Position numbers and translations under genes: made by a program. 64,000 nt of DNA from Branchiostoma floridae (lineage: Eukaryota; Chordata; Leptocardii; Amphioxiformes; Branchiostomatidae), in NCBI RefSeq assembly GCF_000003815.2, contig NC_049996.1, positions 15,698,427 through 15,762,426 on the forward strand, written 5' to 3'. Shown here piece by piece: positions 120-61,500 of this stretch. Under the pieces are notes generated by a model, which worked only from the letters and a program-made list of their open reading frames with translations, made no database searches and had not been told where the DNA came from. How positions within the stretch are numbered: the first letter of the stretch is position 1; every line of letters begins with the position of its first letter.

Positions 120-3100
120 GGAGTGTTTAGGTGAGGTCCATGAGCCCAGCAGCTGTGACCAGTGGAAACAGTGGCAGCAGAAAATCACGGAGATCGACCC
201 AAGTACGTTTTCACATGGTTGTGAGTTGGTAGTATGACTTTTCTCATTTTTTTTGCATGGCATGTTTGTTATATTGTTAGTTGATGTCTAAGTGTAGTTT
301 TAAGTTGTACTCCAAAATACTCATATAACTGGATTTAAGTAATTATCAATTGATAATGACTGTGATGTGTGTGCTTAATCGGAAACGTTTGATAAAAGTT
401 AGACTTTGAACTGAACAGGGGAAGTTGCGTGTGTGTTGTGCGTGTGTGTGTGTTCGTGTGTGTGTGTGTATACGTGTGTGTGTGTGTGTTAAAAATATCT
501 GTGATATGATATACAGTTACTAAATTAAATGTAACATAACATGTAGTGGGACATTTTGTCCCCAATACCTCCTGCGCATAGCCCATATTATGAACAATTT
601 TAGCAATGACTTTGACCTGTTTGGTACTATTTCCTCCAGCACATGTCCCAGAGAAGAAGACGGAGGTTGACACGGAGGCAGAGACCACAGCCAACTGCCT
701 GTGGTTGGTAACCAACACCAAACCCTGCCCCAAGTGTAAGGTCTACATACAGAAAAACGAGGGATGCAACCACATGAAGTGCACCAAGGTGACAGGGTCT
801 TTTTTTGCTCTTTGTAGATGTTTTCATGTTACTGGTTCACTTAATATGGTATATTAGGTCATGTTGCTTTGATTTTATTTGGATGACATCCTCTGAAACC
901 CCAAAACAGAGGTGAGCTTGCAGATGAAAAAAAGTTTGGCAAAAAATGCCTAAGTTGTCAAGAAATGACTGCACACACAGTGTATGGTATTCACTTTTGT
1001 TCTTTGACATATCATTCTTTCACATATTATTCTTGGCATTCTATGAAATTAGCATCTGCTTTCCGGTGTATTTTTTTGCAATCTACTGTATATCTTTTGT
1101 TTAGTTTACAGCTGCTTTGTATGATTTAAAATATGGTTGGAAGTGTGACATACAGGGTAAGCAATGGGTCAAAGCTGTTGCAGCCCCCATCCTAATCTCA
1201 TGAAGGTTGATAGATAGCTCCCTTTACCCCCCTCATGAAATTGTTGCTCGCACCCCACTTACGAAAAGAAAAGTGACAATTCCTTTTTCATAATGTCATA
1301 TACAAACGCAGATGAACCTTTGTGCTAAGTCTTATGTCTTGTGTCCCCAGTGTAAGAATAACTTCTGCTGTGTGTGTCTTGGGTGTGTCTTGATTCCTTA
1401 GAATGTGTTTCTGTATCCCCAGTGTAAGTATGACTTCTGCTGGGTGTGTCTGGAAGACTGGGAGAAGCACAGTTCCTCGACAGGTGGTTACTTCAGGTGT
1501 AACAGGTACGAGGTGGTGCAGAAGGTAGAGGAGGAGACCAAGCTACTCACAGAGGAGGTGAGAGACAACACACACTCACTCAAACTCACTATACTCACAG
1601 AACACCAGGGCTCTAGCCAGCGTCCGTTTTTCTGTCAATTGACGGAAATTTGCTGCGTGTGACGGAAAATTTTTTAAACCAATCCGTCAACCTTGACGGA
1701 CAAAAATCCTTGGTGGAAGCTACAGGCGGCTTGGGGACGCTGTCCACGGCCGGAAAAGCCACACACTGTTTGTTTTGCTATTGTTATTATTGTTGACGAT
1801 GTGTGTCAGTGCCCTTTCGCATACAATAATCTCATTAAAAACCAGTGTTTTCGCGGTTTTCGCGACAATGGGAATTGAGCTGGCTAGAGCCCTGCAGAAC
1901 ACAGAAGCATACACAGAATTACATGCATGTTAGGCTGAAGTTGATTCGTGGAAGTTAGACTTTGAGGTCTATTCTTTGGGTTTATGGAAAGTACTGACTG
2001 TAAATGCATTTAAGTTCGCGGGGATTTAATTTCGTAGTAGCGGTAAAATGGACTTTTCGCGGTGGATTTAAGTTCGCAGTAACACCATGCACTGTTATAG
2101 TAGTCTCTTACTGCCATGGAAAAATGTTCATGGTGGTTTTAGATTCAGGGTGAAGCGCCGCCACGAAAAACCGTGAACATAAATCCACCGCGAAAGTTTC
2201 TGCATTTACAGTAATGGCTGAAGAAAATGTAGACGTTAGATGTTTAGTTACACTGTACATGTATATGGTTTTCATGTATTGAAAGTATGTTGTATAATTT
2301 GTGTGTTGTGTGCTTTTTAAATAACCCCCCAAAATGATGTATCTAAGTTATGTTACAACAGCAAGTTATGTACATCATATCTTAACACCATTTACTTTCA
2401 TTTTGAACAGAATGTGCTACTAATGTGATGTCAACATTTGAGTAACAGACACAATATCTTACCTGAATTTTGATTCAAGGTCGGCATTCTTTAATCAGAT
2501 TTAACTCACAACACTTTCTTTGTTCCCCCTTTTTCTAAGGCCCGAGAAAAGAATGAGAAGGCACAAGAGCTCAGCCGCCTGATGCACTACTACACCAGGT
2601 TCAAAAACCACGACAACAGCTTTAGAGTGAGTAGTTATCAGCTAAGGAAGCTCTCGCTGGGAATGGTTGACCCAAAAGATTCTTTTAAACTTTTATGCTT
2701 TACTCTTTTATTTTGATGTTGTTTTTATTAGAAAGAAAAGGAACAAGTTATCCCGCTGCACAACATTCTCATAAAAGAATTGGGGCTATGAATGGGGGTT
2801 TCTGAGTAGCCTGATGTGATAGCCAGTCCAGGTAGACAGCCCAGGTAGCACGGCCTGGTGCACAGACCAGCATTTTCCTTAAACCCTTTTTGCTAGGAGG
2901 AAGTAGGAAATAGAACACACCAGCAAAAACAATATGTTTTCTCCTTGGGAAGACAGTAGAGTTTTAGCATTTTTTGTGTAATAACGCGTGAATTTCTGCT
3001 TGATGCCCACAGATAGAGGAGGCCTACCTGCGGACTGCCATGAGAAAGATGAACGACCTTGCCCTGGCAGCCGCAAGTACAGGTAAATGTAAGGACATCT

Positions 3101-6100: not shown

Positions 6101-9100
6101 ATGGACTTGTTCAGGCCAAGGTTCTTCGAGGAAGAAGATGAGGAATCCCTGCAAGATGAGGATGCTGCTCTAGCCCAAGCCATCCTGGCGTCCCTGCGGG
6201 ATGTGTTCCCCCCGGAGCCCCCCACCCCGCCCCCGGGGGACAGCAGTACCCAGAGCTCCGACGAGCCCAGCCCCAACCCTGCCACCAGGCTGGCCAGTAC
6301 AGGGGCAAGCCCTTCCCGAGGTACAACCTCTTCTGTATCATCTGGATATGTACACAAGCTTCTGTATCTGTATAGCTGGCACAACACTTTTATTGAATAA
6401 ATGATTTCCTCACTTAGATCATGTGAAAATGAGTTTTTAGCTTCAGTTAGAGATGTCTCTGTCCGAATATACAGCTTTTTAGTTGGACCTTATGTGTTAC
6501 GCCATGAGGTAGTTACCAATGGGGCATGCAGTAGATACAAATACTGGTACTAACTTTCAATTTGATTGGTTGCTAAGAGAGAGAGAGAGAGAGAACTGGT
6601 TTATTCAGGTAACGTAACAACAACACACACAAAGTACAAGATGGTAGTCTGAACACTAAATTGCCTCATACAATGTACAATAGAGGAAGGCGCCCCCAAA
6701 GTCTACTTGTATTGTAATGTCTATTGAAGTGGAATTTGAAGTATTTTATATAAAATGGAAATGTTTGTGTCCCTGACTGTAGTTCCTCCCGTGGACCCTA
6801 CGCTGTGCCTGCGAATCGGCTGTGGCCGGCCCCGCGCGGTGCATCGCCAGTCTGGCAGGCCTCACGACTTCTGCAGCCTGAGGTGCCTGCAGATGGCCAG
6901 GAGAAGGGGCAGGAGGGGGAGGAACAGTACGTATCTGGGGGGGAGTAATTAATCAGGGATGGTACAGTAATGATTAGGTAGGGAGGGGGAGGAACAGCGC
7001 GGTGCACCGCCAGTCCGGCAGGCCTCACGACTTCTGCAGCCTGAGGTGCCTGCAGATGGCCAGGAGGAGGGGCAGGAGGGGGAGGAACAGTACGTATCTG
7101 GGGGGGATGTATCAATGAGGGAGGGTACAGTAATGGTTAGGGAAGGAGGATAGGCAGAAAGGGGAGGAAAAGTACAGTAGTCTGGCAGGCCTCACGACCT
7201 TTGCAGCCTGAGGTGCCTGCAGATGGCCAGGAGAAGGGGAAGGAGGGGGAGGAACAGTACGTATCTGGGGGGATGTATCAATCAGGGATGGTACAGTAAT
7301 GATTAGGTAGGGAGGGAGGCCTCACGACTTCTGCAGCTTATGATGCCTGCAGATGGCCAGAAGAAGGGGCAGGAGGGGGAGGAACAGTACGTATCTGGGG
7401 GAGTAGTCAATCAGGGATGGTACAGTAATTGTTAGGCAAGGAGGAGAGGCAGAAGGGAGGAAAAGTACAGTAATGGTTAGGTAAGGAGAAGGGGGAGGAA
7501 CAGTACGTATCTGGGGGATTTGTCAGTCAGGGATGGTACATTAATGCTTAGGCAGGAAGGAGAGGCAGAAAGGGCAGGAAAAGTATGTAACTCAGTCACA
7601 CACTATCTGGTTTATCATCTACTGTTCCCTGTAGACTATTGCACTCTTATACTTTTTTGCATGTAGATGTGGAGGCTTAATGGCAGCCCGCCAGCAGCTT
7701 CTATCTTTTGGGTTGGCACTGTGTAGGTTGAGGAGCTGAAGATCTTCCCTTATATGTTGTCAGTCCATCTCTTACAGGGTTTTCCATGTGGGCTCTTAGA
7801 AATAGATAACACATCCACCGTATGCCAGATTTTATGATAAATCCTGGTGTTTTTTACCACTACCAGGTCTGGACCTCCCCTGGCATCTGCTTGAGCTGGA
7901 GCCGCCCCCCACCCCACCCCGACGGACGGACTCCCTGCCCCCTCTGCCCCCCACCCCCCCTCAGCTTCGACAGCTGTGCCAAAGGACAGAGGAGTCTGAG
8001 GACAGGTCAGAATCTCAAGTTTGCATGTCATACATGTAGCTAGAGTTTGAAGCAGGCACTGTCAGTAAAATGTTTTTCCAATTTTGTCATTATTAATAGT
8101 TTTCACTCCACAAAGACCAGAAATCAATCCATTTCCAGCCTGTATCTTAAATGGTAAAAGCTGCATGCATGTGTGTTTGTGTGTGTTCGCACTTTTGTAC
8201 CTGTGTGTGTGCGTGTTTGTGCGTGTGTGCATGTATATCTATATATGTGTGTGTTAGTGTGTGTGTGAGTGTGTGTGTGTGTGTGTGCGTACGTGTTTGC
8301 GTGCCTTAGATCCTCATTGCTGTTTAATTTCTGTTATACTGGAAGCAACACAAAGCAGTATGGGTAAGGGGATGAATCCCGCCATCTCTTATTGCCTTAT
8401 TTGCTTTCACAGTGACTACGAACACCTGACAGTGGGGAGGGGTGACGCAGCAAACCAAGCCAACCCATTGACAAGTACGCCCCAAAGGGATGTCCCCCCG
8501 GGTGAACAGGCACTGTTTCAGATCCCTACAGAGGACGGCACGCTGGGGCCTGAGCCGGCAGATCAGGCACTGTTTCAGATCCCTACAGAGGACAGCGCAC
8601 AGGGAGCGGAGCCTGCAGTCACGGACCCTGATCTCCACAGGGTGTTGGAGCTGTCCAGACTGTCTGCGCAGTTAGCTCCCACTGAGTCTGCTGGTAATGC
8701 CACTTTAGTCTCTTTATATGTATCAATCTATCAATTCATGCATGAAATAGTATGTGGTACATAAGTACATGAACAAATTGTAAAGGTTCGGATACATGGG
8801 CTTAGGTCCTTCGGTACAGGTCCAAACCTAAACAATTATGGTCAATTGTTTGAAAGTTATACATGTAGCCAACTGTCTTTTTAGTTCTAGATTGTTGTTA
8901 TTGTATGATAATTTACATATTTGAATCTCAAAACAGTTTTCTCAATCTTCTAAAGCTTATCTGTCTTTTAATTGGAAATCTTTTTTTCCTTCAGCAGGAG
9001 ACCAGGGAGAGGACGAACTGATCCGTGCCATAGAGCTCTCGCTCCAGCTTTCCACAGCAAACTCTTCCACAGCTCGGCCCTTACAACCGCAGGCTCCCTT

Positions 9101-10997
9101 ACCGGTCCAGTCCGAACCCATCCCTGCCACAAATACAAACATGTCCAACCACAGCAACAACAACAACGTCTCTCCCTCTGTGGGCTCCGTCCTCGCTGCT
9201 CCCCCTCTTCAGAAAACTGTGCCGTCTGCAGAGAAACATGCGCCCAACATTCCAGAAGAAGAAGAAGTAGTAGTAAAGGAAGTGCAGAGTGAGCCTTCAC
9301 GAGTGGAGGACATACCAGCAGCAGGCTGGGTGAGTGTCCCGCTGTCAGGGGACACCCTCGGAGCTACGGCCTCACCAGGAGCGGAGAAAAAGTCTCGCAA
9401 AGGCTCTGATTCTCCCAGGAGAAAAGGTAGGAGAGGGGAGCCTAAGGTAGAGCCTGTCAACCCTGCAGAAGCCGTGCCGCAAAAGCAGCCGTCTGCGTCT
9501 CCAAGTGGGGCGAAAGTGAATGAGGAGGCAGAATGGCTGGAGGTTGGAGAGAGGACTGAGTTTCTTGAGGCCACTTTGCGCGCGTGGCTCACGGACGAGG
9601 GCTGGATAGGTAGAAACACTCCCAGCAATGCTCCTGCAGGTCAGAACGCAACAACGCCTAAGGAGGTCTCAGCAAAGGTAGACGGCATGTCACCAAAAGT
9701 AGACGCAAGTGTCGGAAACGCAGAGGAAGGGCTCAAATTTCTGTGCTCTGTGCCTGACAGCGGAAATGCAAACACGGCCACCGGTGCGGGGGAGGAGCTA
9801 AGCGACTTCCCCACCCCCCCTTCAGAAGTGAAGTCCCTTATTTGGGAGCCTCCGAGTGACGAGCCGGAAACAGAGCCTGGTAGTCTCCTGTCCATGGACT
9901 CGCACACTTTGTACAACCTTTCCGACATCGATTCCATTGTCATTAACACTGTGCAAAGGGCTCAGGCAGTTTCAGGGGACCCCACAGTTTCAGGGGACCC
10001 CGCAGTTTCAGGGGACCCCGCAGGAGGAGAAACGACAGAGCTCATTGGTGCAGTAGGGTTAGGAGAAAGTAGCTCTACATCCGTACAAAACAGCAACACC
10101 TCTGGCACAAAGGAAGCCGCAAAGGAACTCCAGCTCAAGTTTGAAGACGACCCAAGTACGCCGAAAGACTATCTCGAAACCAACCTCGACTCACCATTTG
10201 AGTTGACTGACGACCTCCAGGCATTGTGCGCGAAACTGCCTTTAAGTAGGGAATTTCCGAGGATACCCACAGCGGACGAGATTTGGATTCCTCAAGAGCG
10301 CGTCCCCGAACATTTCGCGTTCGACGCGCCATTACCCCCGCAAACAGTGCCATCACCAAATGCTAAGAGTACTGGGGGGATCAATGTTAACGTAGACTCT
10401 GAGGGGAGCCAAGGACTACTAGTAGTAGGTGACAATAAGGATACAGTTGTGCCCAATATGTTTGCACACGTGCCAGTGCAGGGCCCCACTACTTCCCTTT
10501 CCGCAGCTATCACAGATGCACACCAGGCGCTGTTCGGCAACACCATGGCTTTTCCTGGGGGTCAGGAAAGCGCCCCAAACCATCCAATCCTTCCAGCCTT
10601 GCGTCTTTCTGTTGGGCCACCCTCCCAACATCCACACATTACAAACACAAGGCACCCTGCGACCGGCCGCCACCAGTTGGAGGGCAAGTCCGCAACGTTT
10701 GGTCAGAAGGTGCCCGAGCCGCCGCCCCGCCTTACCAGGGAAAGAAGGCTGGCGCTAGAGGCTGCCAGCAAGGCGCAGAGTATTTGGGAGAGAAGAGAAA
10801 AGGACGCGTCGGCATTGTCCGACACAGGCGACCAAAGGAGAGGCCATAGACGAAAATCGAAGAATAGAAAGAGAAGCAAAGAGGAGGGGAGAGGGAATGA
10901 AGGAAGGAGAAGGGCATCAGTGGAGGGGGCAAGGGGGGTTGGGGAGGGGTGGTACGATCCCTTAGATGACGACGATATACCTGCCACTTTGGTGTAG
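120..10997 (+). CDS. ANKIB1: ANKIB1-type RBR E3 ubiquitin ligase, 3' part (12 exons; 5' end outside window)
   Basis: Exons joined by GT-AG with consistent phase: 120-202, 640-788, 1423-1557, 2540-2626, 3013-3082, 3876-4018, 4522-4703, 6097-6320, 6783-6926, 7867-8005, 8413-8693, 8995-10997 (stop TAG). They give 1212 C-terminal residues. The first three exons cover the end of the IBR and the RING2/Rcat domain: CPKC, then GCNHMKC and YDFCWVCL. By analogy with Ariadne RBR ligases, the Cys of GCNHM (codon 765-767) is the catalytic thioester residue. The helical Ariadne-like region follows ([22 protein letters not shown]). UIM-like helices are seen in exon 8 ([16 protein letters not shown]), exon 11 ([17 protein letters not shown]) and exon 12 ([15 protein letters not shown]). 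Exon 9 encodes a Cys/His-rich module. The long low-complexity tail is larger than in vertebrate ANKIB1 as I recall it. The ankyrin repeats and RING1 must lie upstream. The role, ubiquitin transfer, is known for the family. No canonical AATAAA lies close after the stop. Confidence 0.93.
428..489. repeat. GT microsatellite
   Basis: Interrupted (GT)n run in ANKIB1 intron between the exons at 202 and 640. Nothing else is seen in that intron. Confidence 0.9.
1336..1380 (+). repeat. Decayed partial copy of the ANKIB1 RING2 exon edge
   Basis: Bases from about 1336 repeat the polypyrimidine tract, CCCCAG acceptor and first codons of the true exon that starts at 1423. The copy encodes [11 protein letters not shown] where the real exon has [11 protein letters not shown]. 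The frame then stops at TAG 1399-1401. It keeps an acceptor (AG 1349-1350) but no donor. Confidence 0.75.
1606..1894 (+). mobile_element. hAT-type non-autonomous element (MITE), family A
   Basis: 289 bp, ends CAGGGCTCTAGCCAG / CTGGCTAGAGCCCTG, flanked by perfect 8-bp direct repeats CAGAACAC (1598-1605 and 1895-1902). An 8-bp target duplication and CAGGG ends are typical of the hAT superfamily. The interior matches the element at 23314-23643 in reverse orientation. No transposase is present. It lies in an ANKIB1 intron. Confidence 0.93.
1997..2212. mobile_element. MITE with ACTGTAAATGCA ends, copy 1
   Basis: Inverted ends ACTGTAAATGCA / TGCATTTACAGT with an interior rich in inverted TTCGCGGTG/CACCGCGAA motifs. 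A related copy is at 4754-4962. It sits in an ANKIB1 intron (1558-2539), which otherwise shows only the hAT element above. Confidence 0.85.
4754..4962. mobile_element. MITE with CTGTAAATGCA ends, copy 2
   Basis: Same family as 1997-2212: CTGTAAATGCA at the left end and its near-complement TGTATTTACAG at the right, with the same internal TTCGCGGT and AACACCATGCACTG blocks. Located in the ANKIB1 intron 4704-6096. Confidence 0.85.
5453..6032. mobile_element. CAGGGCTCGAAAT-ended MITE with internal 230-bp tandem duplication
   Basis: Ends CAGGGCTCGAAAT and ATTTCGAGCCCTG are inverted repeats. AGTTG occurs immediately outside both ends (5448-5452, 6033-6037), a possible 5-bp target duplication. Inside, about 230 bp is present twice in tandem (5455-5684 and 5685-5914), nearly identical. 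Multiple GGTGCACC motifs occur. It lies in an ANKIB1 intron. Confidence 0.85.
6783..6926 (+). other. ANKIB1 exon 9: Cys/His-rich zinc-finger-like module
   Basis: The exon reads as [15 protein letters not shown] followed by [20 protein letters not shown]: paired cysteines, HDFC, a further Cys four residues on, and an Arg-rich tail. The C-x4-C ... H-D-F-C-x3-C spacing resembles small treble-clef zinc motifs. I do not recall such a module in vertebrate ANKIB1, so it may be a lineage-specific insertion; that is inference. Acceptor at 6782, donor GTACGT at 6927; entry and exit are both phase 1, so skipping it would keep the reading frame. Confidence 0.6.
6820..7590 (+). repeat. Tandem array made from the 3' edge of ANKIB1 exon 9 plus its donor
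   Basis: The true exon 9 end (AACA then GTACGTATCTGGGG) is followed by four further copies of the exon end, donor and proximal intron, with donors at 7090, 7257, 7387 and 7503 besides the real one at 6927. Units are about 115-170 bp. Copy 2 starts at exon text near GCGCGGTGCACC; later copies carry progressively less exon. Reading past the real donor meets TAA at 6950-6952. Confidence 0.88.
8160..8292. repeat. GT-rich simple repeat
   Basis: Degenerate TGTG/GTGC run in the ANKIB1 intron 8006-8412. No other feature is seen in that intron. Confidence 0.85.
9965..10022 (+). repeat. 18-bp coding repeat in the ANKIB1 tail
   Basis: Three in-frame copies encode VSGDPx ([13 protein letters not shown]). 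In exon 11, a 19-residue unit containing [10 protein letters not shown] is also present twice (about 8507-8615). Both show ongoing in-frame slippage in the low-complexity tail. Confidence 0.85.
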
Positions 10998-11469: not shown

Positions 11470-11953
11470 CAGGGCTCTCACCAGCTCAGTTGATCAAAGT
11501 GGGGCCCTATGTTATCATTTGGGCCCTACACTGTATTTCAACTAGCATAGGGGGCTTTTCTGTTTTGTGATAAAGATTTTAATCTCCAAGCAGATCCCAA
11601 GGTAGCATAAGATAGTATCAAAAGCTGGCAGAGGAGTGAGACCGTCCTAGGAGTGTGTATGCGAGTTTGTATGCCTGTTTGACTCCCTTTGGCCGGCTAT
11701 ACTCCTCGGCCAGCTTTGATACTATCTTATGGCACCATAGGATCTTCTTGGAGATTAAAAGATTTAAGAATATTCGCTTTATTTTATGAAATTTGGCCCT
11801 CAAAATATAAGAATTTTTTCTGACTGTTAAAGATTAATTTTCATAAAAAGCCCCCAGGCCCTCTACAGTACTAAAACCTGCGCCACATCCCACATGGTTT
11901 TGCGGCACTTACCCACCCCCCTATGCTGTGAAATACTTCTGGTGAGAACCCTG
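11470..11953. mobile_element. CAGGG-ended element carrying a nested MITE
   Basis: Outer ends CAGGGCTCTCACCAG and CTGGTGAGAACCCTG are inverted. No clear target duplication is visible. A second element (11580-11757) sits inside it. Confidence 0.6.
11580..11757. mobile_element. MITE with TAATCTCCAAGCAGAT ends, copy 1
   Basis: Long imperfect inverted repeat: TAATCTCC, GCATAAGATAGTATC and AAAGCTGGC on the left, with complements CTTTGATACTATCTTATG and GGAGATTA on the right. Related copies are at about 32365-32540 and 50058-50186. It is nested in 11470-11953, so it inserted later. Confidence 0.88.
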
Positions 11954-15274: not shown

Positions 15275-18200
15275 TCAACGGAGGAAAGAGAAGAAGATCT
15301 TCTTCCTCAGAGTAGCTACGGGTGCCGGGCTCTGTTTAAACTGCCCTCCCCCCTTCTTTGCAATGGCCTTGCCCACCTCTTCATTGACCTTGATGAGAAT
15401 GCTCAGAAGGTCATATCGGTCCCCCATGTTGTCTAAGATTTCTACGAGTTTGGTGACAAACCAAGAGCCATACGTCTTACTGCGATACGAAACATAACCA
15501 GGGATTGTGGAATAGCTTAGAAGGAAGTCAGCCTCGTTGGGGATGGTCTCCTGGAATGCCGCCAGACCATCAGACCCGTAGCCAGCATCGACACTGACGT
15601 CGCTAACGCCCCTCTGCTCGCTCCGCCCCTGACAGGCCTGGATAAAGAACAGCTTGGGTTTCCCACCAAGAGAGGGACACTTTGTAGACTTAACCTCTTC
15701 TGCCAGGTCCCGGATGCTGACGGGAACACTGTCGGCCCCATACACCTGCCCCTGACTGCCATGGGACAGGATACATGCAGCGAAGCAGTCGTGGTTTTGG
15801 TGGTCTGCATAACGGACTTGGGTGAAGATGTTGATGAGCTGATCATGTGTGAGATTTTCATAGGTTTGGACCTCGAACCCAAGCTTGGTGAAGATGTAGA
15901 TTAAGTTATCTGGAAAAGAACATAACATACAGCACATTCAACAGTGCAGGGATAAACAAGTCCACTAGCCCTATTGTCCAGGGCAAGTGAAAGTGCTGTT
16001 CGGGCAAGTGCATGTCCATCCCACTTGTCCGATGTTATGTCTTTGATATACTTGTTACTTTTTACAGTCATGACATCAAGAAATTGTCTACAGAGAATTC
16101 CATTGCTGGAAGTGAAAATGCATATACTAGTAACAGTGACATTTGAATTTTGGGCAAGTGAAAAATTGGTTCGGGCAAGTATATTTTTTATGTGCTTGCC
16201 CGATAGGACAAGTGAATTTTAGAAAACTTGTTCAACCCTGCAGTGTACAAACTCTGGTGGTTCCTAAGATAATTTTTTCCATTTACACAATCATTAAACT
16301 ATCTCAGTCCCTTTAGAGGTCTCCTTCCAACTGGGCAGTTTTTAGTGTACATGTATCATGATCAAGAAGAGAGCCGAGTTAAGATCTCATTTGACTTCAA
16401 TTTTTTACTATCTATAGTCACAGATCTATCAACTTAATTGGATATCATGCAGAAAAAAATATAAATGGTTCTCAAAGCATCATTAGACATAATGAATTGT
16501 TGCTCCAAGGTTCTGAAGTATCGGTAGCATTTTGTACCTCTGTCCACATTTGTTCCCTCCCGATTTTCAAGCCCTCGTCGACTGTCTGCCCGTCTGGGAT
16601 CTTGGAAGAATTGTTTATTGTTGATGATAACAGCCAGGCCGCGAGGATCGCGGTCCATCCTGTAGCAGGGCATGTCCTCCCGCTGCCGAGCCCTCTCCTG
16701 CGCCAGTAACACTTCCAGCTCCCGCTGGATGGTAGCCTGGAGATCAGCCGGCGCGGGGCCCAGGCCTGCAGGTACTTCCTGTGGTGGTTATATGGTTTTT
16801 TTGACATGTAAATGAGGGGTGGCAAACTAAACCCTACCTTGTTGTGCTGGCCCCATCATATTCTGGGCATGGTTGTGGTTAGGGGTGGATTACTGATATG
16901 GTGTTATTGGACCGGTCCAGAAAAACCAGACCTGAAAAAATTTGGTGGACCAAATGTTGGACCTATTGGAAAATGAACAGCTTATATTCACACGTTTTGG
17001 GGCTGACCAATCGAGGAAAATTATAAGAGTGAGGTAGAGATTTCAGCCTATAGTCATTTATACCAGGTTTTACAGTCAATAGTAGTTAGCCTTGTAGGAT
17101 TTTAAAATGCCAGTGGGAGTCGAATACTCCACAAAACAGATTTCATTGTAGTGAAATGGACCATTGTTTTGATTTATAAGTTCTCACATACTGGTTCGGA
17201 CCTGGACCTGATCCTCTGGACCTGAACCAGACCTGGACCTGAATTTTCTGTACCAGTACCCACCCCAAGTTGCGGTTGTTGCTGTGGGGCGTACGGTTGT
17301 TGTTGTTGCTCTGCTACTCTGGCTGTCTGCCTGGCTTGGGTGTCAGGTGCTCTGCCAGCCTGCTGCATCAGCTCTGTCTGCAGCATCTGTTGGTAACCTG
17401 CGGATAAATCAAAACTTATTTATTTTTACCTTCACAAAGGAGACATACTGTTTTTGCTCCATTTCTTTTTCCTCCTCTTCTCCAAACATTACCTCCACAA
17501 CTAGAGCTTGGAATAAATCCAAGCAAACATCCAGTGATCATTTTGTCAAATAGAGGATACTAAAAAGATAATTCATGGGACAAATATGGGTGGAAACATG
17601 ACATCTGAAGCACAAAATTGAACCTAAGAACCCCTTTGAAGTTAGAACCATGTTCAATAATCGTGCTGTCGAAGGTCAATAACCATAGCTTTGAAATGCA
17701 TTTATGTGTTAACCTGCAGACAAGCAAATCAAAACTTCTACAGATATTCTTAGAAATTCAATACAGAGGTTACCAATGTCTTACAGTTACACAATCATGT
17801 ACATACCAGTAGCTTCAACTATGTTCTTTGAGGCAAATTGATACACAGAATATTTCTTGGTTTATCCAAGCTTTTGACACAGTAGACCACAACACACAAC
17901 AAAGTTACAGAAAACAATCATCTCTAATGAGTCATTCTGCCCCAAAGGTCATAATGAGGTGTACAACAAGGATCTATTCTTGGTCCCCCCCTGTTTTTGC
18001 TATGTTAATGAGGGGTGGCAAACTAAACCCTACCCTGTTGTGCTGGCCCCATCATATTCTGGGTCATGGCCACCAGGTTAGCTTCCTGGTTGGCTGGATT
18101 CTGCCGTTGCTGCTGAAATGGCTCTGGTTGTCTGTGTTGTGGATTTGGGTCGCCCTTCATTGGTGATGGAGAAAAACCGTCGTCAGGGGAGCCCTTCCCT

Positions 18201-20367
18201 TTGAAACTCCCTGATGACATGCTGGCTGTTGTAGGTATAGATATCAAAATGTTAGGCAAGAAAATGTCAAGAAATACACTTACAATTACAGCAATCATTA
18301 CTGAGCATTAGAATGTAAGGGCTATTTGTGAGACTGCAGTGCGGCCTCGTGTTTTCAACCAAGCATATTTGGATATTACACCCTTTTGTTATTGTTCGTA
18401 CAGAGATTTGACACGTGAGGCTCACGCCAAACACGGGAGAATAACAAATAAAGATTAAATTGAAACAAAGGTCATTTATAAAGCAAAGACTATAATGCTT
18501 ACCCTCATAGTTCTGTATGATGTTTTTGAGGTCAGGTCGCTCTTGTGTCTGCAGTAGCTCATGCAGTACCTGCACATTGTCAGTGGTCAGGTGCATCCCC
18601 TGTTCCAGGGCAATGGCCAAGGAGAGGAAATTGTCCACCTGAAGCAAAAATAAAGTAGTTTGTAAGATTCAAGAGACACAAAGCTCTCATCATGTACATG
18701 TAACTTTAAAAGGTGGACTACACACTTTTTTTGTTAAGTTGTGAAAACTACAGTATGATATTTGCATAACACAATCAACAATCACAGAAGCAAGGGTGTG
18801 CTTAGTATGATGTCCTTTGTTACTGGCCCTGTATGTACTACTTCTGTTATTGGAGTGGAAAAGCCCCTTTTGAAGTGAATCATGAAGATTTTCCATTTGG
18901 CTCAAATTGCAATGTGCTAACATAAATATATGTAAAAAAAATAAATATACAGAGATGGCTTTTCTTCAAGCACACTGTTCCTTATCTGCGTATATACTCT
19001 TATCAATTTATGTTGACTTTTTTTTACATTTAGATACCCCCGGTAGTTAAATGCCTGAAGGCTAAAGCTATCCATACATGTACATGGGGGACAATGGCTT
19101 AATGTTTAACCTGTGTTTACACAATCTCTTGCTGGGTTAATGTACTCTCCAAACAGAGGTTAGCCTCCAGCTGTTTTTCAAACTTTTTTCTTAGTCGTTT
19201 TTATCAGGCTTTCTATTTTGTATTGTATCTTGCTGTGTCAAAAACTAGCACAGCAAGGTACTCAATACAAAATAGAAAGCCCGATAAAAACGACTAAAAA
19301 AACAGAGAGTAGGGTTAATGATACTAGGTTAATGACCCCCTCCTAGGTGGTGGCAAGTGTAAGGCTGGCCGCTAGGAGCGCAATTTTAGTCAGGCTAGCT
19401 TAATGTCATCTCCAAAGGACCACCAGTATCATTTATCATAAAAATGAAATCTTTACCGTTTCCAGCTTGTTTCGTGAGATATAGGCTGCAGCCATGAATT
19501 TCATGTCGTCAAAGTCCCGACTGGTCAGCTCTTCAGACACTTGTAACAGCATCACTCTGTAACCAGATTATAAACATGTTGTGAGCTATACTTCTTATTG
19601 TACATTGTATGATGTATGTCAAAAGAATACTGGCTTCTTATAGCCTGTGTCATTCATGTTGGAGCTTGTTTGAAAGAATATGATTCTTCTTTTTGATGGA
19701 AAGATTACAACAGTAACGTTACCTGTCTAATGCAGCTTAAAAGACACCAAACTTTACATTCAACTGTAAGATCTACATAATACAAATGTATATGGTATGC
19801 CCCCCAGTTTGGGACTGCAGGGGTGTGTGTGTTGGAAACTTAGAGATGATAATTCAGGAAAGAGCCAATAGGTTTTTTTCTTCTCCAGCTTTCTTTTCTC
19901 ATATCTCCTAGAAGCTTGTTTTTGGTGCAAAGGTGTGCTTGCGCTGGTTGGACACATAAAGAGGAATGCGACTAATATTAATAGTTCTTCGTGATTTTTT
20001 TCTGCTGCCATACTTACCTGAAAGGATTCAGCAGTGCCCTGCCGCGGCCTATCTCTCCTGATACCTGTTCCTGGCGCCAGGCTAGTTTCCTCAGCAGGTC
20101 AGCCCTCTGGATCCTGTACAGCAGCTCCGTCAGGAACATCAGGTTGTTCTGACCCAGCAGCCCCTTGTTCTCCAGCTGTCTGAACACATCCAGCGAGCCT
20201 TTGGTATTTTCCAGCTTAGCGGCTGGAATTAAGTCTCTGCACAGGAACTTTAGGGCGGCAATGTCGCCCGACGTAAGATCATCATCAATGTCTTTCAGAG
20301 CCTTCCTGAAGTTGAAGTTAGTGTCCACAGCGTCGGTTGCCAAGCCGGTGCTTGGTAGTCCGGCCAT
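15275..20367 (-). CDS. CASP8: Initiator caspase with tandem death-effector domains (caspase-8/10-like)
   Basis: Coding exons in transcript order: 20367-20018, 19556-19457, 18638-18503, 18225-18034, 17397-17264, 16778-16538, 15909-15275. All are GT-AG with matching phases; the sum is 1788 nt, 595 aa plus stop. Residues ~1-95 form DED1 (ends with the RxDLL motif in RIQRADLLRKL). DED2 is residues ~117-195 (RVMLLQVSEELTSRDF, FMAAAYISRNKL). A Q/P-rich linker (~200-350) is followed by the caspase fold: LAVIINNKQF (~352), SHG with catalytic His (~434) and QACQGR with catalytic Cys (~477). VSVDAG is a likely inter-subunit cleavage site, and YVSYRSKTYGSWF builds the substrate pocket. The family acts in death-receptor apoptosis as a dimerising protease. 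At least one 5' noncoding exon is likely (acceptor near 20403; donor-like sites near 20867 and 21032). The symbol denotes the family; caspase-10 is equally close by eye. Confidence 0.93.
15947..16240. mobile_element. CAGGG-ended MITE, family B (copy 1)
   Basis: Ends CAGGGATAAACAAGTCCAC and ACTTGTTCAACCCTG; CAGTG flanks both sides (15942-15946, 16241-16245). The interior repeats GGGCAAGTG motifs and matches the element at 42740-43057. It occupies most of the last caspase intron. Confidence 0.82.
16807..16866 (-). repeat. Displaced copy of the 3' edge of caspase exon 4 plus donor
   Basis: About 58 bp nearly identical to 18003-18063. It contains the codons for QNMMGPAQQ, the donor and the start of the intron. 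It lies just upstream of caspase exon 6 and is not part of the frame used. Confidence 0.85.
17858..18005 (+). pseudogene. Fragment of a LINE reverse transcriptase
   Basis: Plus-strand translation shows QAFDTVDHN and, after a frame change, GxQQGSILGPPLFLLC. These are two conserved RT blocks (KAFDTVDHN and VPQGSILGPLLF) normally further apart, so the copy is internally deleted and ends in stops. It lies in a caspase intron and abuts the duplicated segment at 18003. Confidence 0.75.
19144..19311. mobile_element. MITE with TACTCTCCAAxCAGAGGTTA ends, copy 1
   Basis: Left end ACTCTCCAAACAGAGGTTA, then TTAGTCGTTTTTATC and CTTTCTATTTTGTA; the right arm is the complement (AATAGAAAGCCCGATAAAAA), ending abruptly at AGAGAGT. 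Relatives in the window are at 25541, 26595, 32711, 33994 and 38143. Lies in the caspase intron 18639-19456. Confidence 0.85.
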
Positions 20368-21442: not shown

Positions 21443-22650
21443 ATGGGAGGAGACGGTCCTCCTAAGGAGCTCAAGATTCCAGACTGGCGGATCTATAAGA
21501 TCCAAGGAACGCCGCTAGAAGACGTGCAGAGAAAGTTACACGCGAAAGGACTACACGACCCTTGGCTCAGGTTTGCATGCGATTTTCGTTTGTACATGTA
21601 GTATGATTTTTCAGCTTATGTGTGTGTTGCCCTGTTTCTCTTGATTTTACGTGTAGTTTGCATCTATTCCTACCTTTTAGTGTACTCTGCAATCTGCAAC
21701 TTGCAACCACTACAAAGCTGCTAGCAGCTCAGTCTATTCTATATAGGGAACATGGAAATATTATTGAATAGCACAAAGTGTTACGTGAATTTGCATCACG
21801 TACTTTTAAATCTAGCTATTTATACTTTGAGAATTACGGATTATAATTCAATCTTCTTAAATTTAGCTTATTTTGTGTTATCAAAGTAGTTCTGAATGTT
21901 TTAATATAGGACTTATTTTTATGATAATGAATATCTAAGACTTAATAATTTTGAACTCTCATTGAGTTTCATAGTTAAACATTCTCAGACTCTAGTCAGA
22001 GCAGGCTTTTAGCTAGGCATGCGTCAACGCGTCATTTAGACGCACTGTCCTAACAAACATAAGAAATCGGACGCAATACTTAGTTTTAAGCAAGACGCAC
22101 TACGGACGCCCAAATTTTTCCTCCCAGCCTCAGTCAGGGCAAACATATTGTAACAGACACAAAAAAATCTTGGCTGAATTCTACAAAATATGCACCTCAA
22201 AATGCAGGAAATAGTATTTCAGAGGGTTATGATGTCAAAAGTTTCCGGGGGGAAACCCACGGACCCCCTACAATGCTCGCGCCGCAGATCACTCCGATTA
22301 CTTTGGACGCCCTAAATTAATTCCTAGCTAAAAGCCTGAGTCAGAGTATATAGTGTGAAAAAATTAGACTGATTTGAAGTAACTCAACAACACTAGACAA
22401 TCTGTTAATCATTTTAAATTCATAATGCTAATCATAATTTTAGATTCCAAAGACAACATACCTTGATCCAACATATAACACATTGATCATTTTTGTGTGT
22501 AGGAACGAAGCGTGGAGGTTCCAACACTTACCAAGAATCACCTTCCCCATGATGGCGTTTCGTGGCTTCAAGTACGGGTTCGCCGCATTTTTGGTGGCAC
22601 TGGCCGTGGAGAAGGCTTTCTTCAGCAGTGATGACCACGGACACCATTAA
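21443..22650 (+). CDS. NDUFB3: NADH dehydrogenase 1 beta subcomplex subunit 3 (complex I B12)
   Basis: Two coding exons, 21443-21570 and 22503-22650, join in phase 2 to give 91 aa. The N-terminal half reads [15 protein letters not shown] and [18 protein letters not shown], the conserved NDUFB3 signature. The second half ([20 protein letters not shown]) is the single transmembrane segment, and a short His-rich end (DDHGHH) precedes TAA. It is an accessory subunit of mitochondrial complex I in the inner membrane. The upstream frame from 21287 is open, but the homologous start is ATG 21443. The intron holds a hAT MITE at 22002-22338. ATTAAA at 23013-23018 is a likely poly(A) signal. Confidence 0.95.
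22002..22338. mobile_element. hAT-type MITE with CAGGCTTTTAGCTAGG ends
   Basis: 337 bp; ends CAGGCTTTTAGCTAGG and CCTAGCTAAAAGCCTG. Perfect 8-bp duplications AGTCAGAG flank it (21994-22001, 22339-22346). Partial relatives occur at 50681-50785 and about 58810-58871. Confidence 0.93.
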
Positions 22651-22901
22651 CGAACTCCATCCTACCCAGCTTCATAATCATCAACAACACCCCTGTTCTG
22701 GCCGTGGACTGGTCTGGAGTTTCCCAGATGTCGAGAAAATTAGGACTGTTCCACTCTAATCCAGGGCACCATTGACAAACTCCTTGATCCAACCCAGCAT
22801 CATATCATAATGATCAACAACACCCCTTTTCTGGCTGTGGACTGGTCTGGAGTTTCCAAGATGTCAAGAGAAAAACAGGACTGTTCCACTCCAATCCAGG
22901 G
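22642..22901 (+). repeat. Tandem duplication of the NDUFB3 stop region and 3' UTR
   Basis: Units 22642-22766 and 22767-22901 are closely similar. Each begins with CACCATT followed by a stop in the same register (TAA in unit 1, TGA in unit 2), so the copied segment starts inside the last codons. Confidence 0.85.
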
Positions 22902-23012
22902 ATGTTCTTGGACAGATTGTGCAGCTGGGAACTTGTGTCTTCGTAGTTACATCTTGTGATTTAAATCAACTGATGACAACGTTCAACTTTATTTTCTGTA
23001 TTATGATAATAC

Positions 23013-23018
23013 ATTAAA
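23013..23018 (+). terminator. Candidate NDUFB3 poly(A) signal
   Basis: ATTAAA about 365 bases after the stop codon, followed by GT-rich sequence. It is the first signal-like hexamer seen in the UTR. Confidence 0.45.
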
Positions 23019-25540: not shown

Positions 25541-25727
25541 TCTCCAAGCAGAGCTTAGGCTCCGGCTGTTTTTAACGTTTTTTAGTCGTTTTTATCGGGC
25601 TTTCTATTTTGTCATGTTCTTGAAGTCCGCCAGCCAGTTAAGTTTTGACAATACAATATACAATACAAAATAGAAAGCCCGATAAAAACTAAAAAAACAG
25701 CCGCAGCATAACCTCTGCTTGGAGAGT
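25541..25727. mobile_element. MITE with TCTCCAAGCAGAG ends, copy 2
   Basis: TCTCCAAGCAGAGCTTAGG at the left and its near-complement ending CTCTGCTTGGAGAGT at the right. Inner arms are CGTTTTTATCGGGCTTTCTA and its complement around a ~60-bp unpaired centre. Confidence 0.9.
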
Positions 25728-33830: not shown

Positions 33831-34319
33831 GTTCCACATGTCGATGGAAATACATTTGGTATATTAGAAATTGGCCAAATAGGCAGATACAGTAACACAC
33901 TAGAGGGGTTGGCCGGCCCAAAACTAATTAGTTTGAAACATACTACCGGAGAACTGTACTTTGGGCCAGTTGATCCCTCTGGTGTGTTATCTTACTCTCC
34001 AGGCAGAGGTTAGGCTTCGGCTGTTTTTCTAACGTTTTTTAAGTCGTTTTTATCGGGCTTTCTATTTTTTATTTTATCTCTCTGTGTCAAAACATTTTGC
34101 TGGCGTACTTAAAGAAAAATGACAAAATAAAAAGCCCGATAAAGACGACTAAAAAAACGTTAAAAACAGCCGGGGCCTAACCTCTGCTTGGAGAGTAACT
34201 TATCTGTCTATATAAACGAATTTCTACTATTTCTAGCGACATGTTGAGCCTGGTAGTGACCAATCTTTGTATACGTTCATAGATTTTGTGGTAAGGGTGG
34301 TTGACACAGAACCTGGAGG
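33831..34319 (+). other. Orphan candidate exon pair
   Basis: A strong acceptor (TCTCTTTCAG) opens 33831-about 33983, encoding VPHVDGNTFGILEIG...TTGELYFGPVDPSG, followed by GTGTGT. A second open block, 34238-34319, has a good acceptor (CTATTTCTAG) and a consensus AG-GTAAGT donor and encodes RHVEPGSDQSLYTF...VVDTEPG. A MITE (33994-34196) lies between them. No flanking exons or family recognised, so this may be a decayed gene fragment. Confidence 0.25.
33994..34196. mobile_element. MITE of the ACTCTCCAAGCAGAGG family, copy 5 (long form)
   Basis: ACTCTCCAGGCAGAGGTTAGG and CCTAACCTCTGCTTGGAGAGT ends, with full inner arms TCGTTTTTATCGGGCTTTCT and complement. The best-preserved long copy in the window. 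Confidence 0.92.
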
Positions 34320-39855: not shown

Positions 39856-50419
<10,564 letters not shown>

Positions 50420-50483
50420 GGTGGTCACACAGCACCTCGTATACTACTTCTTTCCTACAAAACAAACACCAACATGTCAATAG

Positions 50484-50569
50484 GACGTCCAGCACAAGAG
50501 ACCCCTCTGTACCCACCTCAGGCATGGTGGTCACAGAGCACCTTGTATACTACTTCTTTTCTACAAGAC
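50484..50569 (-). repeat. Duplicate of the SANBR start-codon region
   Basis: Near-identical to 50378-50463, offset 106 bp. It includes the acceptor-like TTTTGTCTTGTAG, the ATG and codons MPEVGTEGSLVLDV. The offset is not a multiple of three. If unspliced, its ATG opens a frame that terminates at the TGA overlapping the real start (ATGCCTGA). Confidence 0.85.
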
Positions 50570-50680
50570 AAAACACAAAGAACATGTAAAAATTGACATC
50601 AAAGATCATCTGTGGTAGTAGATGTAGTTGTTCTGAATAAAGCAAAACAGAAGTTTCAACACAAAAACATAACTTGACAT

Positions 50681-55500: not shown

Positions 55501-58500
55501 ATTGGTTATCCTGTACCTACTCCTACTCACCATGAATATATCACAACCAATGGCCATCCTGCACCTACTCGACATGACTATGCCACAACCAGCGGCCAAG
55601 CAGATGGGAGAGAACAGTTAGATAGCATTCCCGTCCGAGATCGTGAAAACGTTAGCCCAACACGACGGTCTCTCTTTCAATCCGGAGGACCTGTTGCTAA
55701 CCATACGCCAGGGAATCGATCATTTGGGAGTGAAACCAATCAAGAGCAGGACGAAACTCTGACCTCAAGTCCAAAACGATCAACCTCACGTCTTTCGGAA
55801 AAGAAAACGCCGCAAACGAGCCCCGGAAAATCTCTGCAGACGTTGAGGTATCTCCTGAGGGAGTTGCAGGCTGCAGGGGATGACCCGGAAGTGAAACGTT
55901 TGTCACAGGAAGTGGAGAGGATTGTGGGACAGCTACCAGAGACCAGGAGGGCTGCTGACATGCAGACTGACATCAACCTGGCACTTCAGCCTCTCAGGTA
56001 TACAGTTTGGTCATTGTGCTTTAAACTATTGTAGCAATTGCATCTAACTCAGTTTTTGTTTTGCTTACTCCAATCCTGTGTCTGACTACATGCCTCTTGT
56101 TTTTATCCTCTATAGCAGCAAAGCCACAACATAAACGTAAGATCTCCTCTAACTCGGATTAAGAATTTGATAGCATTTCAATAATAGTCTCCAGTGTTAG
56201 TACATGTATTTGCTTTTTGATTTTGATTTTGAATTGTTGTAACTTGTATATTAAAGTTGCTTGTTGTCCTGTACCTGTAGAAGTTAGAACAGTCAGCTGA
56301 GGAGGACATGGCTTGTATCCTGAACCAATCATAAATTACAACTCTAACTCAAATTAGGAATTTGACAGTATTTCATTGGTCTCCAGTGATAGTATATTTG
56401 CATTTGGATTTGAAATTTCGAATTGTATAACAAAGTTGTGTTCTCCTGTAGAAGTGAGAACAGTCAGCTGAAGAGGAGGGCTTGTATCCTGAACCAAACA
56501 TGAATTACAAACTCCTCTAATTCAGATTAGGAATTTGACAATATTTCAATGGTCTCCAGTGATAGTAATTACTAGTATTTTGAATTGTAAAACAAAGTTG
56601 TGTTCTCCTGTAGAAGTGAGAACAGTCAGCTGAGGAGGACATGGCTTGTATCCTGAACCAATCATAAATTACAACTCCTCTAACTCAAATTAGGGATTTG
56701 ACAGTATTTCATTGGTTTCCAATGATAGTATATTATCATTTGCTTTTGAATCTGAATTTTGAATTGTATAACAAAGTTGTGTTCTCCTGTAGAAGTGAGA
56801 AGTCAGTTGAGGAGGAGGGCTTGTATCCTGAACCAAACATAAATTACAAACTTCTCTAACTCAAATTAGGAATTTGATAGCATTTCAATGGTCTCCAGTG
56901 ATAGTATAGTACTATTTTGAATTGTATAACAAAGTTGTGTTCTCCTGTAGAAGTGAGAACTGTCAGCTGAGGAGGACATGGCTTGTATCCTGAACCAATC
57001 ATAAATTACAACTCTAACTCAAATTAGGAATTTGATAGCATTTCAATGGTCTCCAGTGATAGTATACTAGTATTTTGAATTGTATAACAAAGTTGTGTTC
57101 TCCTGTAGAAGTGAGAACAGTCAGCTGAAGAGGAGGGCTTGTATCCTGAACCAATCATAAATTACAAACTCCTCAAACTCAGATTAGGAATTTGACACTG
57201 ATGACAGCATTTCAAAGTTCTCCAGTGATAGTATATTAGTATTTGAATCTGAATTTTGAATTGTATAACAAAGTTGTGTTCTCCTGTAGAAGTGAGAACA
57301 GCCAGCTGAGGAGGAGGGCTTGTATCCTGAACCAATCATAAATTACAAACTTCTCTAACTTAAATTAGGAATTTGACAATATTTCAATGGTCTCCAGTGA
57401 TAGTAATTACTAGTATTTTGAATTGTATAACAAAGTTGTGTTCTCTGGTAGAAGTGAGAACAGTCAGCTGAGGAGGAGGGCTTGTATCCTGAACCAAACA
57501 TAAATTACAAACTTCTCTAACTCAAATTAGGAATTTGATAGCATTTCAATGGTCTCCAGTGATAGTATACTAGTATTTTGAATTGTATAACAAAGTTGTG
57601 TTCTCCTGTAGAAGTGAGAACAGTCAGCTGAAGAGGAGGGCTTGTATCCTGAACCAATCATACATTACAAACTCCTCTAAGTCCAATTAGGAATTTGACA
57701 GTATTTCAATGGTCTCCAGTGATAGTATACTAGTATTTTGAATTGTATAACAAAGTTGTGTTCTCCTGTAGAAGTGAGAACAGTCAGCTGAGGAGGAGGG
57801 CTTGTATCCTGAACCAATCATAAATTACAAACTTCTCTAACTCAAATTAGGAATTTGACAGCATTTCAATGGTCTCCAGTGATAGTATATTAGTATTTGC
57901 ATTTGGATTTGAATTTTGAATTGTATAACAAAGTTGTGTTCTCCTGTAGAAGTGAGAACAGTCAGCTGAGGAGGAGGGCTTGTATCCTGAACCAATCATA
58001 AATTACAAACTCCTCTAACTCAGATTAGGAATTTGACAGCATTTCAATGGTCTCCAGTGATAGTATATTAGTAATTACGTTTGAATCTGAATTTTTAATT
58101 GTATGCAAATTCCCATTACTCATTTGATTTCATTTATGATTTCGAGTTATATTATTAGGATTAACGTTGTACAATTGATTTGCCTTATTTTGTCGTAGTT
58201 GAATTGCGTTATTATTTGCCAATTCTTGCTGTGTCACCATTTATTTGATTTTATATTGTTGTCATTATTGTTATGTATGTACGGGGTTTCCCCCAGGGAC
58301 CTTTGAAAAATGCTGACAAGGCGGCATGTATCCCTGGATAAATAGAAACAAACAAACAAACAAATAACAAAGTTGTGTTCTCCTGTAGAAGTGAGAACAG
58401 CCAGCTGAGGAGGAGAGCTTGTATCCCGAACCAAACACATGAATTACAAACTTCTCTAACTCAAATTAGGAATTTGACAGTATTTCAATGGTCTCCAGTG

Positions 58501-61500
58501 ATAGTATAGTATTTTGAATATTTAGAATTGTATAACAAAGTTGTGTTCTCCTGTAGAAGTGAGAACAGCCAGCTGAGGAGGAGAGTCCGTATTCTGAACC
58601 AGCAGCTCAGGGAGAAGGAGAGGGCTGAGAGGGAGAACAGGGCGCCTGACTTCAGCTTTGAGGGTGAGGCTTTTAAAGTCCTTCTGGCTTAGACATCATC
58701 TTGAGAGATGTCACAGTAGAATGACCTAGTGACTTCCCTGTCAATCAGAATTCCATGCTTGTCAGAGGACCTGCTCCCCAGTGTAAGGATGTGTAGTGCT
58801 TTAAATTTCTTGTTATTTTAAGAAAAGCGTGTCCAAATGAGGCCATGACGCATGCCTGACTAAAAGCCTGATGATGACCTTGTCCCCAGTGGAGTCTCTT
58901 CACTCCCTTCAGACATGCTATGATCGTGATGTTTTAGTGGTAGAATAGCTCTTGCGGTGGAGAGTAAGTGATATAGGTTTGGGCCCTCTTGTGACTTGTT
59001 TTGGAACTTCAGGAACCTGTTTAGGGTCAGACTTTTTTTGAAGAGATTCATTAGTCAAGTATGTACACAGTTAATAGGATTTTCATCAAGCAGTGACTAC
59101 TTTTTAAAGGTAAACACACGTACCTCCAAATTTTTTATGGCTATCAGACCATTTTGATCACGGAGTGACCAATGGACTCTCGTGGGAACTGGGTCACTAC
59201 GTGATCAAGATGGACTGAGTGATAGCTATCGAAAATTTGGAGGTACCTTTAAAAAGTAGTCACTGCTCAATGAAAATCCGATTAACCAGACATTTTTGAG
59301 TTGCTGTTGACCTTGTCCCCAGTCGAGTCTCTGCGCTCCATGAACATGTCCCTGCAGAAGCAGCTTTCCTGTAACAGTACTGCAGCAGAACTTCCAGTTG
59401 TGATATTTCGTGTGGTAGATTTTTGAGTTTTGAAATGTTGCTGTTGATCCTGTCCCCAGTCGAGTCCCTGCGATCCCTGAACATGTCCCTGGAGAAGCAG
59501 CTGCAGGACCAGGCCGGCCAGCAGGAGGCGCTGCAGTGCAGGGTGGAGGACCTGAGGCGGGAGTGCGACCAGCTCAGACTGGACAACAAGAACCTGATGG
59601 ACATGGTGGGGATGGATGGATAGATGGATGAATGAATGAAGGAATGAATGAATACAGGAATGAAGGAATGAGTGCGGGAATGAAGGAATGAGTGAGTGCA
59701 GGAATGAAGGAATGAATGAAGGGATGAGTGCATGAATGAAGGAAGGAATGAGTGCATGAATGAAGGAATGAATTAAGGAATGAGTGCAGGAATGAAGAAA
59801 TGAGTGCAGGAATGAAGGAATGAGTGAGTGAGTGCAGGAATGAAGGAATGAGTGCATGAATGAAGGAATGAGTGCATGAATGAAGGAATGAGTGCATGAA
59901 TGAAGGAATAAGTGCATGAATAAAGGAATGAGTGCATGAAGGAACGAATGAAGGAATGAGTGCAGGAATGAAGGAATGAGTGCATTAATGAAGGAATGAG
60001 TGAATGAAGGAAGGAAGGAATGAATGAAAGAAGGAATGAATGAATGAAGGAATTCTGTAGCTGAACAATTTCTGGTACAATGTATGTCAACTAATAATGA
60101 CAACTACATTGTACTAGCTATAAATGGTACCACGAGGCTACATACAAAACAGTTAAGTATTATTAGTAACATACTCTCTCCCAAGGAGGAATAGAGGAAG
60201 GAAAGCAATGAACGAAAGAAGGAATGAATGAATGAATAAAATAAGGAATTCACAATGTACAATGTATGACAACCAATAACAGCTACTAGTTATATCGACA
60301 ATGGTACTACAAGGCTACATACAGAACAACAAAATAATATTAATAACAGCACAGTCATGCATGAGTGATCTGGTCTTTCATTTGAAATGATTGACCTAGG
60401 TAGGCAGATATACGAGTTAAACATCATAGCAGTATATGGAAAATATCGTTCTGTGTTCCAGTAAGAGAGATGTGTGTTTTGGTTCTAATATTCTTAATTT
60501 AAACAATGCTTCTCTCTCTTTACTGTAGGTGGGGCAGAAGGACACCCAGAGCCTCAACACCAAGGCGGAGTGGGACGCCCAGATGGCCAGAGTTAAACAA
60601 GGTAACTGGTGGACATACTGACTGATAATTTCTAATTGATCCAAAGTCTGGTACATTGATTTTTTTTCAGGTCTGCTTTTTCCCGACCAGTCAAAGAAGA
60701 TAACCAGTTTTGTACCGGTACACCAGTCCCTTGGGCTGACTAGTCGTAATGGGGACATGAAGCCAGCAGCCCATTGTACGAGGGATCTTAAGGCATTGAA
60801 AAAGTCTACTTAATTATAACATTTCATAGCCTGCAGCAGTTCTAAGGTTTGAAGCGGAAGTTTGTTTATTTATTTGTTTATCTGTAGACGTGGGTGCTAC
60901 CTTACAGCAGGTCCAGGGTCTGAAGCTGAAATTGTATATTTATTTGTTTGTTTGTTTGTTTATCCCTGTAGATGTGAGTGCTACCTTACAGCAGGTCCAG
61001 GGCCTGAAGCTAAAGTTAGAGGCAGTAGAGATGGAGAACGGAACCCTCCTGGTGATGTTTGTTTGTTTATCCCTGTAGATGTGAGCGCTTCCTTACATCA
61101 GTGGAGATGGAGAATGGAACCCTCCGGATGATATTTGTTTGTTTGTTTATCCCTGTAGATGTGAGCACTACCTTACAGCAGGTCCAGGGTCTGAAGCTGA
61201 AGTTAGAGGCAGTGGAGATGGAGAATGGAGCCCTCCTGGTGATGTTTGTTTGTTTGTTTGTTTGTTTGTTTGTTTATCCCTGTAGATGTGAGCGCTACCT
61301 TACAGCAGGTGCAGGGTCTGAAGCTGAAGTTAGAGGCAGAAGCTGAAGTTTGTTTTTTATTTGGTTATGTTTGTTTATCTTTTTATTTGTTTGTTTATCC
61401 CTGTAGATGTGAGTGCTACCCTTCAACAAGTCCAAGGTTTGAAGCTGAAGCTAGAAGCAGTAGAGATGGAGAATGGAACCCTCCTGGTGACTATCAGACA

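Follow-up and report, generated by a model that had tools for sequence, protein, structure and literature searches.

Introduction

Amphioxus genes are known to carry "mirages", tandem duplications of intron-exon borders that were described in two globin genes, BflGb6 and BflGb9, and earlier in Adh3 (PMC3087553). For the globin genes that report gives reverse transcription-PCR (RT-PCR) results compatible with regular splicing, a mirage with six units in one haplotype and three in the other, a mirage that was aberrantly assembled in an older draft, and a model of intron gain in which mirages are the source of new introns. The exon borders of PGBD5 bear 60- and 108-bp repeats that are backed by resequencing, and troponin C is named as well (PMC3902484). 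Introns of VCBP3 hold whole or partial exon copies, in some cases equipped with canonical splice sites, next to the coding exon that they resemble (PMC2632668). Here we analyze a 64,000-nucleotide stretch of the Branchiostoma floridae genome (NC_049996.1, positions 15,698,427 to 15,762,426, forward strand; contig C18 of a 513-Mb, 431-contig assembly), hereafter the window, in which exon edges with their splice sites are repeatedly copied into the adjoining intron.

The phenomenon is already in print as amphioxus mirages (PMC3087553, PMC3902484), and the window arrays probably belong with them, as the tolerated outcome of ordinary local duplications, some of which happen to include an exon border. 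The arrays share with the published mirages tandem repeats that span a border at either exon end, an AG or GT that is often kept, an intact real exon, and unit lengths of like order (10-160 bp reported there). They differ in lying in other genes, in reaching 12 decoys and in numbering seven within 64 kb; the haplotype length variation and RT-PCR results belong to the published cases, whereas our data are the sequence of one assembly. The VCBP3 copies are alike in being intronic exon copies with splice sites beside a coding exon, although the data are not shown in that paper and its account of them does not describe a tandem unit structure. In intron gain by tandem genomic duplication (PMC3443670) splice signals are likewise multiplied by a tandem duplication, but the window arrays span an existing border and no new intron is needed for the reading frame. 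A new intron inside a former exon, created through a duplicated exonic AGGT, was not found among these arrays, which lie at borders. New here is a rough rate of junction-spanning arrays; no genome-wide count of mirages turned up among titles or opening abstracts, and one may nevertheless have been published.

Seven tandem arrays span a splice junction

Six genes were annotated by hand in the window from splice signals and open frames, with 84 junctions in total: an Ariadne/RBR gene, a DED caspase, NDUFB3, a coiled-coil gene, SANBR and CCDC14 (exon numbers count from within the window). Uniform self-alignment of the window returned 15 local tandem arrays at the loosest threshold, and 7 of the 15 span a splice junction. 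All seven exon-edge arrays that the first-pass annotation had reported in ANKIB1 (our Ariadne-type gene), SANBR and CCDC14 are present, and its range of 1-12 decoy copies per array is correct. Five cases involve an acceptor and two a donor, so either exon end can be hit.

Two arrays lie in the Ariadne-type gene on the plus strand. At the acceptor of exon 3 (1423-1557), a pair of 40-base copies with 90% identity (1340-1451) provides a single decoy acceptor at 1351, 72 bp upstream and with its AG present. The donor array of exon 9 (6783-6926), found by self-alignment and decoy scan, extends from 6834 to 7585 and contains decoy donors at 7089, 7256, 7386 and 7502, with weaker ones at 7171 (25/40 core bases) and 7582 (27/40 core bases). 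SANBR, on the minus strand, has a donor array at exon 3 (48490-48684; array 48056-48572; decoys 48355, 48199 and 48062) and an acceptor array at exon 1 as annotated, which holds the 5' leader and start codon (50268-50454; array 50376-50572; 91 bases at 93% identity with a shift of 106; single decoy at 50560). The exon 3 copies alternate: a 24-base stretch of the real exon recurs at 48199 and is missing at 48355 and 48062, a pattern that would fit the later duplication of a block of two units.

The remaining three arrays are acceptor cases in CCDC14, on the plus strand. The largest, at exon 7 (58557-58663; array 56144-58601), contains 12 decoys from 56281 to 58389 at spacings of about 158-181, with one of 439. 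Copies of the exon 8 (59460-59605) edge occur over 58869-59502, the array itself occupying 59294-59502 (75 bases, 88%), with a decoy at 59323 (137 bp upstream; 35/40 core bases) and a weaker one at 58890 (29/40). A GAATG-type simple repeat (59606-60053) starts almost at the donor of this exon. The exon 10 (61407-61539) array (60860-61490) has decoys at 60888, 60972, 61079, 61159 and 61286. The joined reading frames are open using the full exon copies only, without any decoy.

A probable local origin of the arrays and counterparts elsewhere in the genome

The units of two arrays were searched against the 513-Mb assembly, with only the best candidates scored. Among these candidates, all 13 matches to the CCDC14 exon 7 unit and all 4 matches to the SANBR exon 3 unit lie in their own arrays, and neither unit had a second locus. 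This confinement supports a local duplication process, the part of the first-pass proposal of a local mutational process that stands; a start of that process at exon borders was not established.

We drew 25 random 10-kb stretches from the same assembly, of which 22 were usable (212.7 kb without N), and located exons in them with a predictor trained on the window and run at loose and strict settings. With a gene's codons left out and the splice matrices still holding all genes, the predictor recovers 66-67 of 78 junctions; the strict setting yielded 53 predicted exons, 47 of them overlapping a true exon, and 106 predicted junctions, 68 of them exact. The random stretches contain 39 arrays, and a predicted exon straddles 9 (loose) or 5 (strict) of them. 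At equal threshold, 30 arrays with units of 62-211 bp were found in 172.8 kb of random sequence and 14 in the 64-kb window, and this resemblance in density and unit size supports ordinary local duplication.

By eye, 7 of the 9 straddled random arrays are mirage-like (in stretches L017, L026, L028 and L030, two in L034, and that at 1358 in L036). Among the exons compared with Pfam, that in L026 is a confirmed LDLa with four decoys, and those of L030, L017 and L034 had no match. Two candidates were rejected: the array at 8822 in L036 is an in-frame coding repeat, and that in L024 matches at 23/38 bases only. A further case, read in the sequence of another chromosome, is a kinesin-domain exon (L031, C2:31967400-31968300) with acceptor decoys at 207 and 358, spaced about 151-154 bp and upstream of the real edge at 512. 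Tables of protein-family matches proved too insensitive for counting mirages, short exonic parts being missed; inspected by eye, 134 kinesin matches gave one clear case, and none was seen among 148 myosin and 97 UCH matches.

Taken as mirages, the arrays would have the following history. Local duplications, roughly 60-200 bp long, would be frequent in this genome, leaving about 11-14 detectable arrays per 64 kb. Where such a duplication spans a border, a single full exon would be left together with truncated copies, which carry an acceptor if they lie upstream of it and a donor if they lie downstream. Selection would tolerate this state because an entire exon, splice sites included, is still there. 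The arrays would then grow, shrink and homogenize like other minisatellites, presumably by slippage or unequal exchange.

Border-spanning arrays compared with chance placement

Two null models were used, in which either whole arrays or the repeat unit alone were placed at random. The unit null suits a duplication model better; the whole-array null puts the chance expectation too high for long arrays, since several units are merged in an alignment row. With whole arrays placed over the window, three thresholds gave 7 observed junction-spanning arrays and 4.1-4.5 expected (P 0.06-0.11); the strictest threshold gave 6 observed and 3.7-3.8 expected (P 0.11). Placement within gene bodies gave an expectation of 5.4-6.7 (P 0.37-0.54). 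With the exon predictor in place of the hand annotation, 6 of 14 window arrays are straddled, against 3.4-3.6 by the array null (P 0.11) and 2.2-2.4 by the unit null (P 0.01-0.02). For the random stretches the array null expects 5.6 at the loose setting (P 0.10) and 4.0 at the strict one (P 0.36), and the strict unit null expects 2.7 against 5 (P 0.12). The first 18 stretches alone gave 5/30 or 2/30 straddled arrays, with 3.1 or 1.9 expected by the unit null and 4.2 or 3.0 by the array null. The many cases in the window are largely what repeat-rich, exon-dense sequence would be expected to contain.

Several results weigh against a purely random origin of the placement. In the window, the unit null was run under four placement rules, each with two array sets and two counting methods, and expects only 1.7-3.8 spanning arrays where 7 occur (P 0.0004-0.053); unit lengths were hand-set, and one array set omits the arrays at 4812 and 42110 by choice, with results given for both. 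In the two 10-kb flanks, 4/5 or 3/5 arrays are straddled against 0.9 or 0.6 by the unit null (P 0.004 and 0.011) and 1.0 or 0.8 by the array null (P 0.006 and 0.028). In the random stretches at the loose setting, the unit null expects 4.1 against 9 (P 0.015). Pure chance placement may therefore not be the whole story, and exon borders could be preferred starts of duplication, through transcription- or splicing-coupled breaks or through replication stalling at a change of composition. However, the whole-array null yields no significant excess in the window or the random stretches, the excess at the strict setting is not significant, the window was selected because the pattern was noticed there, and the flanks continue the same locus. 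The observed/expected ratio in the window is 1.0-4.2, varying with the null. We regard a border preference as unlikely, any excess of border-spanning arrays over random placement of short repeats being modest at best; the data leave room for a preference of about twofold or for a local hotspot. In the random stretches, straddled arrays occur at close to the rate expected by chance (9 or 5 of 39 against 2.7-5.6), with an excess that is significant by the loose unit null and not by the other three tests.

The upstream flank (L009, C18:15688427-15698426) carries three more arrays at predicted exon edges (460, 3017 and 7426), two donors and one acceptor. The acceptor exon, at 7426, has a Pfam IBR match and four decoys, and probably belongs to the Ariadne-type gene of the window.

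Against plain slippage, which does not predict it, several two-copy cases are spaced rather than head-to-tail. Spacing was not supported as a hallmark of mirages overall when 6 mirage and 23 other two-copy arrays were compared (P 0.73): one of the six (L017) is really multi-copy, the spacers in the other five measure 15-71 bp, and several non-mirage pairs have likewise spacers. In L030 (8216-8459), the two copies of an acceptor mirage share 96% identity across 92 bases and stand 60 bases apart, with a spacer in between. Aligned to its flanks, this spacer scored no better than the best of 200 shuffles, the downstream score of 11.5 being close to the best shuffle at 12.0. A fuller version of border preference, in which borders are favored about twofold, new mirages form as spaced edge copies by short-range template switching, possibly transcription-coupled, instead of head-to-tail slippage, and thousands of them genome-wide serve as raw material for introns, appears to us somewhat less probable still than the preference itself.

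Decoy splice sites

Besides the real edges, the seven junctions have 30 copies, 21 acceptors and 9 donors, and these are splice-competent sequences. The AG or GT is kept in all 30, and in 24 the score, as rounded in print, equals or exceeds that of the real site. Decoy use would end in a premature stop in 16/16 cases translated (16 of the 29 coding-edge decoys); the SANBR exon 1 decoy sits in the leader, where its use would bring in an upstream start that opens a frame of 37 codons. By analogy with the other amphioxus mirages for which it is reported, splicing at the window arrays is expected to be normal.

These properties could be taken to mean that decoys are kept by selection, as the first-pass annotation had considered, for example to tune expression via unproductive splicing. 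Column variation can be cited in favor: at CCDC14 exon 10 only 1 of the last 20 intron columns varies against 15 of 20 just upstream, and among ten complete decoys of CCDC14 exon 7 the variable columns number 16/55 in the distal intron (after exclusion of 15 gapped columns), 8/45 in the intron core and 5/46 in the exon part, a difference that reaches P 0.03 when core and exon part are combined; this was the one region comparison tested formally. However, the stretch upstream of the exon 10 intron end is a TTTG-type simple repeat, and the exon 7 core compared with the distal intron gives P 0.24. Next to the two donor junctions, variable columns number 9/30 on the exon side and 7/28 on the intron side for Ariadne-type exon 9, and 3/30 and 18/30 (partly indels) for SANBR exon 3. 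We do not read this pattern as a case for selection. The copies share ancestry and were recognized by similarity (at least 62% over 40 bases), which favors intact ones, so that an intact AG or GT is weak evidence in sequences so alike; a donor copy in the upstream flank (L009:659) has lost its GT to GC. The decoy acceptors do lie upstream and the decoy donors downstream of an intact exon, as the first-pass annotation had noted, but we reason that tandem duplication of a border forces this arrangement, and the regularity is therefore no evidence of selection. Maintenance of the decoys by selection is, in our judgment, very improbable.

An origin of the arrays in misassembly, for example through haplotypes that were collapsed or stitched together, is the least credible reading: tandem arrays are hard to assemble, and one globin mirage was aberrantly assembled in an older draft (PMC3087553), but real edge and nearest decoy differ in all seven pairs (identity 0.77-0.97 for exon and 0.68-0.91 for intron sequence), and the published PGBD5 repeats have resequencing support (PMC3902484).

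Other sequence properties were considered and rejected. A donor-like GTRAG lies 1-2 nt into the exon in 3/5 acceptor mirages, and by weight-matrix score donor-like exon starts occur in 3/5 against 18/44 exons in all (P 0.33). Acceptor-like exon ends, as in recursive splicing, fared no better, the two donor mirages ranking 37 and 39 of 40. A detection bias in which the constrained real exon keeps a pair recognizable for longer was not supported: with hand-chosen decoys and lengths, exon identity exceeded intron identity in 8/13 mirages (P 0.22) and, decoy against decoy, in 7/9 (P 0.10).

Other repeats and gene assignments

The 8 of 15 arrays that span no junction begin at 4812, 5455, 22639, 32036, 41215, 42110, 46372 and 60002. 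That at 46372-46574 (minus strand) is a minisatellite with a 20-bp unit, directly next to the donor of SANBR exon 4 (46578-47205); its unit includes a few exonic bases at most, its likeness to the donor was judged by eye, the decoy scan found no decoy above threshold in it, and it was not counted as spanning. Two further cases had been listed by the first-pass annotation. The displaced copy of the caspase exon 4 (18034-18225) donor edge is real (16798-16867, minus strand; matching piece 17994-18063; 70 nt, 94% identity, 1196 bp away) but is not tandem, lying in the next intron beyond the exon at 17264-17397. The two-copy NDUFB3 repeat (22639-22901, plus strand; 22639-22766 and 22764-22901, 84% identity) is also present, but spans the last codons, stop and 3' untranslated region and contains no splice site.

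Long coding exons contain in-frame repeats of 57 bp (8507-8618), 18 bp (9966-10023) and 51 bp (63261-63365). Near-palindromic hairpins occur at 11571-11766, 25541-25725, 33992-34198 and 50057-50186, together with other inverted pairs; several end like CTCCAAGCAGA / TCTGCTTGGAG and resemble small non-autonomous transposons. Positions 1-109 are a dispersed repeat that stops about 10 bases ahead of the exon at 120; most of its length is matched, at 89-92%, by 12 more sites across the assembly.

Gene assignments have Pfam support for IBR/Ariadne, caspase and DED, NDUF_B12, BTB_SANBR and CCDC14; the coiled-coil protein had no Pfam match. The earlier exons of the Ariadne-type gene lie outside the window. 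The closest solved structures to its protein are ARIH2 and ARIH1, and the name ANKIB1 comes from the first-pass annotation.

Discussion

The mirage reports cited here proceed gene by gene, and our random sample suggests that they are common. This rests on 7 of 9 straddled arrays in 212.7 kb that are mirage-like by eye, with one exon Pfam-confirmed, and extrapolation to thousands of mirages per genome is rough. If mirages are indeed so common, the assembly would be a natural test of how the spliceosome chooses the real exon among near-identical sites, and would also test the idea, already published, that new introns originate from copies of this kind.

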